Of a DNA stretch of 7,567 bases, positions 5,872-7,567 are shown piece after piece. How positions within the stretch are numbered: position 1 is the first letter of the stretch; each line of letters starts with the position of its first letter. Source of the DNA: an uncultured Rhodobacter sp. Lineage in GTDB: Bacteria > Pseudomonadota > Alphaproteobacteria > Rhodobacterales > Rhodobacteraceae. The notes beneath the pieces were generated by a model. It ran no database searches and was not told the origin of the DNA. It saw nothing but the letters and a program-made list of their open reading frames with translations. The DNA lies in assembly GCA_937901435.1 (NCBI GenBank), contig CALGTJ010000052.1, positions 1-7,567 on the forward strand, written 5' to 3'. The translations under genes were made by a program, and so were the position numbers.

Positions 5872-6375
5872 TTACGCGCTCCGGGACTTATCCAGCAAGG
5901 TGAGCGGATCGAAATCCTCTGGGAAGTCTTCGAGCCATTCCTCTGTCTTGGCTTGCTCTTCGGCCTCGTATGTCTCTGGCTTCCAGATCTGGAATGTGTC
6001 GCCCGTCGCGATAAAGAAGGCCTCGCCTTCCAGATCGATCTTGTTGCGCATCTTTGCCGGCAGAACCAGACGACCAGTCTCATCCACCGAGGTATTCAAA
6101 GAATACCCACTGTAAAGGCGCTCTAACATACGGCGATCTTTTGATCCACGCGGCAATCCTGCGATCTGCTCATCGACTTCCGCGATGGCCTGCATGGTGT
6201 AACATTCAAGATAGCTTTGCTTGGCGGTCCCGTAGAAAATCACAAACTCCGGGGACTCGCCTGATTTCCAGTTTGGGTCAGAGGACTCAAGAACACGGCG
6301 AAAATCGGCCGGGATAGACACCCTGCCCTTTCCGTCCACCTTTTGGTGGAATTCGCCTCTGAACCTGCGAGCCAC
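5872..6375 (-). CDS. mraZ: Division/cell wall cluster transcriptional repressor MraZ
   Basis: MraZ is a DNA-binding protein of the SpoVT/AbrB fold. In E. coli it represses its own dcw promoter by binding TGGGN repeats spaced by 5 nt. The 167-residue product has two half-repeats: [14 protein letters not shown] (13-26) and [17 protein letters not shown] (97-113), the duplicated swapped-hairpin motifs of the family, with basic and aromatic residues before the first ([12 protein letters not shown]). It ends in an acidic tail (about 138-157), making it slightly longer than the E. coli protein of about 150 residues. The start is GTG at 6375. AAAGGA lies 11 nt upstream, a somewhat long spacing, but MARRFRGEF is where MraZ homologues normally begin. 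It is the first gene of the operon, preceded by a long leader with a terminator and by phased TGGGN-like arrays that are its likely operators. Confidence 0.96.
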
Positions 6376-6400
6376 GTTGAACCCGGTCCTTTAAATTTGT

Positions 6401-6420
6401 GCCCGATTATTGGTGCGGGC
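6401..6420 (-). other. Hairpin between terminator and mraZ ribosome binding site
   Basis: GCCCG (6420-6416) pairs with CGGGC (6405-6401) around a 10-nt AU-rich loop on the minus-strand RNA. Its 3' side ends 8 nt before the AAAGGA (6392-6387) that serves as the mraZ ribosome binding site. It is present only in read-through transcripts. It may affect mRNA stability or ribosome access; five base pairs is modest, so this is tentative. Confidence 0.35.
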
Positions 6421-6444
6421 CTGATTTTCCGAGGCCATGCCCCG

Positions 6445-6490
6445 AAATAGAAAACGGCGGATTGAGCTGCTGCCACTGCCCAATCCGCCG
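6445..6490 (-). terminator. Rho-independent terminator inside the mraZ leader
   Basis: Read on the minus strand, CGGCGGATTG (6490-6481) pairs perfectly with CAATCCGCCG (6464-6455) around a 16-nt loop. It is followed by TTTTCTATTT (6454-6445). A 10-bp GC-rich stem plus U-tract is a textbook intrinsic terminator. It lies only about 70 nt before the mraZ start and on the same strand, so it must be read through for the dcw operon to be expressed. It is therefore an attenuator, not an end-of-gene terminator; no minus-strand gene ends here. Confidence 0.88.
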
Positions 6491-6496
6491 CCCTCG

Positions 6497-6511
6497 TCCC
6501 GCTGTGCGGGA
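6497..6511 (-). other. Small GC-rich hairpin in the leader RNA
   Basis: TCCCGC and GCGGGA (6 bp, 3-nt loop) form a compact perfect hairpin immediately upstream (in the minus-strand RNA) of the terminator stem, with only 6 nt between them. It has no U-tract of its own. It could stabilise the 3' part of the sRNA, or act as part of an alternative fold competing with the terminator. Function is inferred from position only. Confidence 0.5.
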
Positions 6512-6657
6512 TGTCCAGCTGCGCGCGCCACCTGGGGGGATGTCTGCTCGCTCGCGCGCCGGATCTCTTGTTTCGATGAAAACGGGGTGCCTGTATGAAA
6601 CCTACTTAGTGATCTCGGGGTTCTTGAGATGCCCCATTTGTCCGTCTGCATCGTGTG

Positions 6658-6690
6658 ACTATGGATGCCATGGGAATTCATGGAAATCAA
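6658..6690 (-). promoter_or_regulatory. Candidate promoter for the mraZ leader / dcw operon
   Basis: On the minus strand TTGATT (6690-6685) is a plausible -35, with ATCCAT (6666-6661, 18-nt spacer) or the better-looking CATAGT (6663-6658, 21-nt spacer) as -10. With CATAGT, transcription would start near 6651, placing the start about 276 nt upstream of mraZ, close to the leader length reported for R. sphaeroides. Neither -10 matches consensus well, and a promoter further upstream (larger coordinates) cannot be excluded. The phased TGGGA-like array overlaps this element, as expected for an autorepressed promoter. Confidence 0.4.
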
Positions 6691-6705
6691 CAGGAATATA
6701 CGGGC
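6671..6705 (+). promoter_or_regulatory. Putative MraZ operator array A (four 10-bp-phased repeats)
   Basis: Plus-strand pentamers TGGGA (6671), TGGAA (6681), CAGGA (6691) and CGGGC (6701) are spaced by exactly 5 nt, giving a 10-bp period. E. coli MraZ binds TGGGN direct repeats with 5-nt spacers. Only the first copy is a perfect TGGGN, the others deviate at one or two positions. The array overlaps the candidate promoter. The motif is on the strand opposite to mraZ transcription. The first copy also lies within the inverted repeat CCATG-N6-CATGG (6668-6683). Confidence 0.5.
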
Positions 6706-6713
6706 AAAATTCA

Positions 6714-6728
6714 TGGCAACCGCTGGGA
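6714..6728 (+). promoter_or_regulatory. Putative MraZ operator pair B
   Basis: TGGCA (6714-6718) and TGGGA (6724-6728) are spaced by 5 nt, in the same orientation as array A and just beyond it. The 9-bp direct repeat AATTCATGG (6675-6683 and 6708-6716) links the two arrays at a distance of 33 bp, about three helical turns, so A and B could be bound on one DNA face. Confidence 0.4.
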
Positions 6729-6776
6729 AACCCTGAAAACACGGCTCGATCAAGGGTCTCAAGCCGGACGAAATCG

Positions 6777-6814
6777 CATCTTGTGGTGAAGCCCTTCAAT
6801 TTTGACACAAGATG
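6777..6814. repeat. Perfect 9-bp inverted repeat with nested palindrome
   Basis: CATCTTGTG (6777-6785) and CACAAGATG (6806-6814) are perfect inverse complements around a 20-nt spacer. The spacer contains a second inverted repeat, TGAAG-CC-CTTCA (6787-6798). Neither strand has a following U-tract, so it is not an intrinsic terminator. It may be a regulator-binding site or, if transcribed, an RNA hairpin. Confidence 0.55.
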
Positions 6815-6831
6815 TAGTGGCACTTAGATCT

Positions 6832-6856
6832 GGCCAAAAATTCCCATATTTTCCCG
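6832..6856 (-). promoter_or_regulatory. Putative MraZ operator array C (three phased repeats)
   Basis: On the minus strand CGGGA (6856-6852), TGGGA (6846-6842) and TGGCC (6836-6832) follow each other with exact 5-nt AT-rich spacers. This is the three-repeat, 10-bp-period arrangement described for E. coli MraZ and is oriented with mraZ transcription. It lies about 180 bp upstream of the candidate start, so either it acts at a distance or a second, more distal promoter exists. Confidence 0.45.
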
Positions 6857-6919
6857 AAAAACTTTGGGGATAAGCCTAGATCAGTCGAAAAATCACCTGT
6901 TTCCTCTGCAATATGTAAC

Positions 6920-6967
6920 GAATCACTCTGGGAATTCCAAGGAACAGCCCTTTGATTCGGCGGATTC
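6920..6967. promoter_or_regulatory. Cluster of three GANTC (CcrM-type) sites
   Basis: GANTC occurs at 6920-6924 (GAATC), 6954-6958 and 6963-6967 (both GATTC). In Alphaproteobacteria the cell-cycle methyltransferase CcrM methylates GANTC and can tune promoters of division genes. The sites are seen directly; methylation and any effect here are inference. Confidence 0.35.
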
Positions 6968-6987
6968 TGGCACATGGATTGAACTCG

Positions 6988-7002
6988 TCCCATGTTTTCC
7001 CA
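6988..7002 (-). promoter_or_regulatory. Putative MraZ operator pair D
   Basis: Two perfect TGGGA copies on the minus strand (7002-6998 and 6992-6988) are separated by AAACA, again a 10-bp period; a further single TGGGA on this strand is at 7027-7023. This is the best sequence match to TGGGN-N5-TGGGN in the window. It lies about 120-130 bp upstream of the divergent gene starting at 7121 and so may serve that gene as much as mraZ. Confidence 0.45.
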
Positions 7003-7051
7003 TGCCGTTGATCATCCTGGCGTCCCATGATCGCTGAAGAGGTGCCAATCC

Positions 7052-7077: not shown

Positions 7078-7120
7078 ATTTTGAATTGTCGCTCTGCAGA
7101 TGGCCGCCTACAGAAGTGGG

Positions 7121-7567
7121 ATGCCTAGGTTTTTCAAATCCCTCACCCGCTCCAAGTCAGACGTCGCCCCGCTTATGTCTCATGCAGCGTTCAGTGCGAT
7201 TGTCCTGCCCGCCTTTGATGCGGTGCTGAGCCCTCTTGGCTTTCACCAGCGGCCAGATCGGCTTTGGGTGCGCAGCAATGACGCGCCGATCCGACAGATG
7301 TTTCATATTGCCCATTGGAAAGGCGCCACCGCCTCGCCAAGCTGGGGATTGTCCTTGGATTTCGTCCCCCATCGCGCCGGGGATCGGCTTGTCTGGCATC
7401 GTACCGACAAAACAGCGCGCGTCGACGCAGACCTGCGCGTGCACGATCTATCGGAGCCATATCACCTCTCGATGCTGGCGACAGAGACGGATTTGCGCGC
7501 GCGTTTGGCCCAAGTCTTGCCGCTCTCTCTTATGGACGCGCAAGACTTCTGGGACGCAGGCCGCACC
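7121..7567 (+). CDS. Uncharacterised protein, possibly DUF4304-like (partial, 3' end outside window)
   Basis: The frame from ATG at 7121 is open for 149 codons to the right edge and starts MPRFFKSLTRSK. Codon use favours G or C in third positions, as in the neighbouring genes, which supports real coding. No signal peptide or membrane segment is visible. Notable features are a helix-like LPAFDAVLSPLGF (about 30-42), a following basic and aromatic stretch with RLWVR (47-51), and alternating strands including WGLSLDFVPH. A long-helix, LGF, WxR pattern followed by strands recalls DUF4304 proteins, whose function is unknown; I hold this weakly. An in-frame ATG at 7100 would add 7 residues but has no ribosome binding site; 7121 has GAAGTGGG directly before it, at tight spacing. 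The gene is divergent from mraZ and shares its regulatory region, including a TGGGA copy at 7117-7121 that overlaps the start. Confidence 0.7.
   Translation, partial: MPRFFKSLTRSKSDVAPLMSHAAFSAIVLPAFDAVLSPLGFHQRPDRLWVRSNDAPIRQMFHIAHWKGATASPSWGLSLDFVPHRAGDRLVWHRTDKTARVDADLRVHDLSEPYHLSMLATETDLRARLAQVLPLSLMDAQDFWDAGRT

Follow-up and report, generated by a model that had tools for sequence, protein, structure and literature searches.

The window, by which we mean the whole 7,567-nt stretch of DNA analysed here, carries on its minus strand what we take to be the dcw division gene cluster: the listed frames of this strand were recognised as murE, ftsI, ftsL, rsmH and mraZ, the gene names being assigned by recognition, and part of murF is presumably present at the window's end as judged by eye. 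The first gene of the cluster, mraZ (5872..6375 (-)), begins with a GTG codon and has 80 analysed relatives at 67-80% identity. Upstream of it is a long stretch without a recognisable gene, where a mechanically derived 123-aa frame with a TTG start (6391-6762) overlaps the terminator hairpin described below and can be regarded as a candidate frame only. On the plus strand a reading frame divergent to mraZ (approximately 7100-7567), seen by eye, continues past the end of the window.

The earlier note on this DNA had described a perfect 10-bp stem followed by a T-tract at 6445-6490, about 70 nt before mraZ and with no gene ending there. The stem is present as described (6455-6464/6481-6490; CGGCGGAUUG and CAAUCCGCCG in the RNA) and forms part of a 14-bp hairpin that includes one G.U pair and has a predicted energy of -27.2 kcal/mol. 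This hairpin, R4 (6454..6491 (-)), has a conserved loop, AGUGGCAGCAG, and is directly followed by the U-tract TTTTCTATTT (6445..6454 (-)). The distance from the end of the T-tract to the mraZ GTG (6375) is 69 nt, and none of the recognisable listed minus-strand frames ends at the hairpin. A simple terminator scan, whose rule admits loops of 3-8 only, did not list R4, its sole site being a chance-level one on the plus strand. For the 216-nt RNA of 6440-6655 the calculated folding energy is -91 kcal/mol (z = -4.3), a stability that none of 200 shuffled versions attains, and the hairpin together with its U-tract is predicted to end an RNA of about 206 nt.

Using a reference genome that was assigned to Rhodobacter sphaeroides by a 100% match to the reaction centre L protein of this organism, we compared the locus with UpsM, for which the available text of the original study gives a leader of 268 nt and an sRNA of 206 nt (PMC5089854). 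Counting 268 nt back from the mraZ GTG of R. sphaeroides leads to the start of a conserved block, and a further 206 nt reaches the end of the U-tract. When aligned to the window these published ends fall at 6655 and 6450, again 206 nt apart. The window leader aligns end to end with R. sphaeroides UpsM, and the R. sphaeroides leader matches a covariance model of the UpsM core with an e-value of 1.2e-35. Sequence comparison hence confirms the window leader as a UpsM homologue situated in the mraZ 5' leader on the same strand, with a predicted dcw 5' leader of 280 nt (6376..6655 (-)) and a predicted terminated sRNA of 206 nt (6450..6655 (-)). The proposal that the locus is the source of a UpsM-type sRNA is supported by this alignment, the 206-nt length and the covarying, order-wide family described below, termination itself being predicted. 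The start near 6651 and the RNA end at 6445 that had been proposed with it need to be shifted nearer to 6655 and 6450 by homology, and the lengths of about 207 nt for the RNA and about 276 nt for the leader are replaced by 206 and 280 nt.

A putative promoter region (6663..6686 (-)), delineated from the sequence and its relatives, contains three repeats about 10 bp apart (TTCCAT, TTCCCAT and ATCC), which resemble MraZ boxes; therefore, MraZ may repress its own leader. Across the window and its 80 relatives a strict two-box pattern was found in 48/81 sequences and a looser three-box pattern in 61/81. Additional TGGGA/TCCCA words at approximately 6724-7027, namely about 73, 191, 278, 337, 347 and 372 nt before the predicted start, are possibly further MraZ sites. 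A sigma-70 promoter scan of the window returned no site, and no MraZ operator motif was recognised in the available text of PMC5138195.

These upstream features bear on whether R4 might merely be an ordinary terminator of an upstream transcript, with mraZ being served by its own promoter downstream of the hairpin. Intergenic terminators are common, but the window has no recognisable minus-strand gene upstream, and both a conserved block and the promoter-like repeats lie upstream of the hairpin. While the mraZ leader is described as typically short outside the Rhodobacteraceae, the reporter fusions in R. sphaeroides, as far as they are given in the available text, reveal no promoter nearer to the gene (PMC5089854), and we regard this reading as highly improbable.

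To place the leader in a family we used an MraZ scan, which confirmed 391 related stretches, and analysed the best 80 loci of these 391. Going by the record titles, we take all of them to be Rhodobacterales with one exception: L057 bears a Flavobacteriia title and is identical to L054, a Roseobacter record. The loop motif TGGCAGC occurs 60-119 nt upstream of mraZ in 81/81 cases (the window and 80 loci; 77 distinct leaders). From these 81 sequences 47 were picked by hand for alignment, and loss to failed anchors (seven from the full-leader set and one from the core set) left 40 full leaders and 46 cores. In the aligned structure, which includes the R1 closing stem P1 as a manual addition, pairing holds in 95.6% of cells; a compensatory change is seen at 15 of the 45 pairs, a value reached by none of 500 shuffles. 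The stems thereby covary. By element, compensatory changes affect 6/14 pairs of R4 (40 sequences), only 1/15 of R2 and none of R3, a small hairpin of the form CCCGC..GCGGG (6498..6510 (-)) recognised from the fold and the relatives' alignment. Further pair types, one of five covariation measures, gave a weak signal, the real value being reached by 40/500 shuffles, and P1 is imperfect, with 81.5% and 84.1% of cells pairing. The slid control favours the structure because the latter was partly derived from the same alignment.

Between the conserved blocks of this alignment there are indels of many lengths, unlike what is seen in a conserved coding frame. That attenuation is governed by ribosome stalling on a leader peptide is hence barely credible to us, even though the mechanical TTG frame of the window crosses the hairpin and a sORF is weakly translated in R. 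sphaeroides; the authors of that work, in the available text, report this sORF only from R. sphaeroides (PMC5089854).

The attenuated leader is widely distributed. Our order sample comprised 292 genomes of the order to which G005 belongs; as G005 is the Leisingera aquimarina genome that contains L075, this order is Rhodobacterales. The covariance model of the UpsM core matched 286 of the 292. A second search with laxer filters, covering 31 genomes (the six misses and 25, not all, of the weak ones), recovered matches at E <= 0.01 in 29, and in three of the six misses (G067, G105 and G193) the match lies directly upstream of mraZ, bringing the count with laxer filters to 289/292. G148 and G233 gave no UpsM match even under these filters, and G117 showed a weak match only, on a contig other than that of mraZ. 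The covariance search against related mraZ leaders that the earlier note had called for therefore finds the structure conserved in 286-289 of the 292 genomes. In a class-wide draw UpsM was found in 4/289 genomes, all four being also part of the order draw, and in 0/285 of the others, which we infer to lie outside the order. The window core (6445-6604) itself matches the model at 189 bits, the window being among its source sequences. A scan of the window against Rfam 15 gave chance-level matches only, none near a gathering score.

The earlier note had considered the signal sensed by the leader as not settled; this is out of date, as it has been partly settled in print. StsR, an sRNA dependent on RpoHI/RpoHII, is reported to pair with UpsM and the dcw leader in R. 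sphaeroides and to bring about cleavage by RNase E, the pairing exposing the RNase E site and also altering read-through (available text of PMC8307010, PMC11354728 and PMC8625941). A search of 10 genomes with 11 nt of the reverse complement of the R1 segment gave 28 matches, as against 5 for the pattern read backwards. These 28 fall into nine in UpsM itself, ten at one conserved locus (one per genome, 10/10) and nine others. The conserved locus, exemplified by L156:1454-1581 on the minus strand, which corresponds to G101:C4:1443995-1444122, and delineated by the complement search and relatives, displays CTTGG and TATA boxes in 10/10 aligned copies, a hairpin that carries the complement to R1, and a putative intrinsic terminator with a GC hairpin and a T-run. 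The two boxes presumably represent an RpoH-like promoter. In a larger set of 36 copies 29 have CTTGG and 32 have TATA, with two copies truncated in this region, and a 40-nt core, ACTGCTCGATAGGTTTCTTGCCTGTATGAAACCTGCCTCA, is unchanged in 36/36 of these and in seven further genomes, that is in all 43 read. A model of this StsR-like locus has one match in each of the 292/292 order genomes, including all 31 that were searched again, and in the class draw matches only the same 4/289 genomes. Rfam returned only sub-threshold matches for the locus, SorX scoring 22.5 bits against 46.6 needed. Given its promoter type, complementarity to UpsM and conservation, the locus is very likely StsR. In G117, G148 and G233, where StsR is present and UpsM was not found before mraZ, MraZ is only 25-40% identical to that of the window. 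The retention of StsR in these three, where a clear UpsM is lacking, means that UpsM cannot be its only target.

Comparison of the window with the consensus StsR revealed an 18-nt contiguous complement at R1, GTAGGTTTCATACAGGCA (6588..6605 (-)), with 17 Watson-Crick pairs and one G.U pair, and CAUACAGGC in UpsM matches the StsR loop. Within the close set there is hardly any variation in the R1 segment CAGGTTTCATACAGGC. In 76 of the 81 close leaders the contiguous match to StsR extends over 16-18 nt at its longest, and in five over 11-12. A set of 34 other leaders (28 divergent members, R. sphaeroides and five more phototrophs) has longest runs of 8-18, several of them not at R1; several deep members have an interrupted long match, with longest runs of 8-11 nt, some of which lie off R1. 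Shuffled leaders (n = 405) gave 6-11 in 390 cases and 12-16 in 15. The window-StsR duplex is calculated at -46.8 kcal/mol, a value reached by 0/1000 shuffled StsR cores, and shuffled leaders matched the real duplex value in 2/3240 cases for the 81 close leaders and in 35/2040 for the 34 others (including one bad slice, G287). ACAGGC is absent only in G266 among the 34 others, GAGCAG is present in 110/115 leaders, and UGGCAG in the terminator loop is found in 81/81 close leaders and 31/34 others. G101 and G269 have an extra ACAGGC upstream of the R1 site. Since the search that located the sRNA used 11 nt of complement, 11 of the R1 pairs were selected for, which leaves the flanking pairs and the conservation as the independent evidence. 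Covariation on both sides of the UpsM-StsR pairing was sought over 36 StsR copies and not found, because the core is the same in every copy. In eight divergent genomes (G223, G179, G072, G087, G185, G161, G065 and G067) the longer match is replaced by GAGGCAGG and ACAGGCA, both being complementary to StsR; this replacement is weak evidence because it may represent one clade and a single event and because the longest run lies elsewhere in several of them. Together, the complementarity and the calculated duplexes suggest that R1 is the StsR site. A second contact is possible, if speculative, at CGAGCAG in R2 (6544..6550 (-)), which is complementary to the StsR 5' CUGCUCG in the duplex calculation and absent from the co-fold structure.

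R1 is closed by P1, whose 5' strand (6642..6653 (-)) was defined by the covariation test and co-folding and whose 3' strand (6575..6587 (-)) was defined by the alignment. Co-folding with StsR abolishes the P1 pairing (about 1 before, 0 after) for the window as well as for R. sphaeroides, with a gain of about 10-11 kcal/mol over the separate parts; as pseudoknots lie outside the model, P1 could not have been retained as one, and its loss is partly built in. In the co-fold the U-rich 3' strand of this stem is freed only in part (unpaired at 0.39-0.80 in the window and 0.18-0.76 in R. sphaeroides). Placing the published 130-nt fragment (available text of PMC5089854) on our alignment suggests that the R. 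sphaeroides RNase E cut would map near 6581/6582, in this strand.

The R2 hairpin (6514..6563 (-)), defined by the alignment and the covariation test, has a C-rich apical loop, CCCCCC, at 6534-6539. Its motif ACATCCCCCCAG is present in 81/81 leaders (the window and 80 loci), and its apical segment GCGAGCAGACATCCCCCCAGGTGGC is nearly invariant across the 46 aligned cores. This near-invariance would suit a riboswitch in which a small molecule bound by R2 would switch R4, as proposed by Weber et al., who put forward an R2-R4 refolding and, by the available text, had no experimental evidence for a riboswitch (PMC5089854). In divergent members, however, inspection by eye shows a different apical stem that still pairs, with the C-run as the main constant part, a pattern resembling a displayed loop more closely than a binding pocket. 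The invariance of R1 is accounted for by StsR, Rfam yields no aptamer match, and we consider a riboswitch unlikely. A GGGG following the terminator U-tract lies within 6376-6444 and at the same place in relatives: it occurs within 32 nt 3' of the U-tract in 67/81 leaders, as against a mean of 23.5 and a maximum of 34 in 200 single-base shuffles uncorrected for relatedness. The first GGGG lies 9-13 nt past the stem in 44/81 leaders, and among the others GGGG occurs in only 16/33. That this GGGG pairs with the C-loop of R2 is conceivable.

Homology, structure, complementarity to a conserved sRNA and order-wide co-occurrence have all been established by computation here. Taken with the published record for R. 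sphaeroides, namely termination with about 1% read-through, StsR pairing and RNase E cleavage, they make it highly likely that the window contains a UpsM-type attenuated dcw leader under StsR control via R1. Transcription would begin near 6655, and most RNA polymerases would halt at R4 near 6450 to release the 206-nt sRNA, the rare polymerases that read through yielding the dcw mRNA. P1 would keep the R1 domain closed, with the segment UAGGUUUCAUACAGGCA on display. Under stress or in stationary phase StsR would pair with UAGGUUUCAUACAGGCA and open P1, making its U-rich 3' strand accessible to RNase E, which would then cut both UpsM and the dcw leader and lower the expression of the division genes. 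We infer that this UpsM-StsR scheme as a whole operates in the organism of the window.

UpsM, its terminator and its control by StsR were already known from R. sphaeroides, and the long terminated leaders of Rhodobacteraceae had been described by Weber et al. (PMC5089854); what we add is the proposed R1 site for StsR and the conservation of both RNAs across the order. No paper describing the order-wide conservation of the pair was recognised in the literature searched; a 2021 NAR paper may show part of these results. The control of a division operon by early termination and a stress sRNA has been demonstrated experimentally in one species, going by the available sources. Since almost every genome sampled from the order has both RNAs with matching sites, the switch is likely to be general in an ecologically major group. 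Our analysis supplies precise sites for mutation and a family model absent from Rfam 15, and the 40-nt StsR-like invariance and the UpsM R2 and R4 loops raise concrete questions. In R. sphaeroides StsR is also published to affect rpoE. More broadly, on a proposition about which we are nearly evenly divided and lean slightly to doubt, UpsM-StsR might be a single ancestral two-RNA switch connecting RpoH stress to cell division in the order Rhodobacterales, with the R2 C-run, the R4 UGGCAG and the GGGG after the U-tract marking additional, as yet undescribed partners by which read-through into the division genes is set. In this picture StsR would probably be a hub because its 40 frozen nucleotides exceed the need of one target, and UpsM might double as a sponge for it.

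With regard to known systems, the StsR-like locus shares with StsR/RSs0827 of R. sphaeroides (available text of PMC8307010 and PMC8625941) the complementarity to UpsM and, putatively, an RpoH-like promoter, the two being very likely the same RNA by promoter type, complementarity and conservation. The window leader agrees with R. sphaeroides UpsM (PMC5089854) in its place before mraZ, its 206 nt by alignment, R1-R4, the terminator, P1 and the C-rich R2 loop. The two differ in leader length (280 nt in the window versus 268) and in the contiguous StsR run (18 versus 12), and the RNA of the window is a prediction from sequence. Likewise, the Listeria SreA and SreB, which derive from SAM riboswitches, are terminated leaders doubling as sRNAs according to the available text of PMC5089854; whereas these sense a metabolite, the known partner of UpsM is another sRNA.
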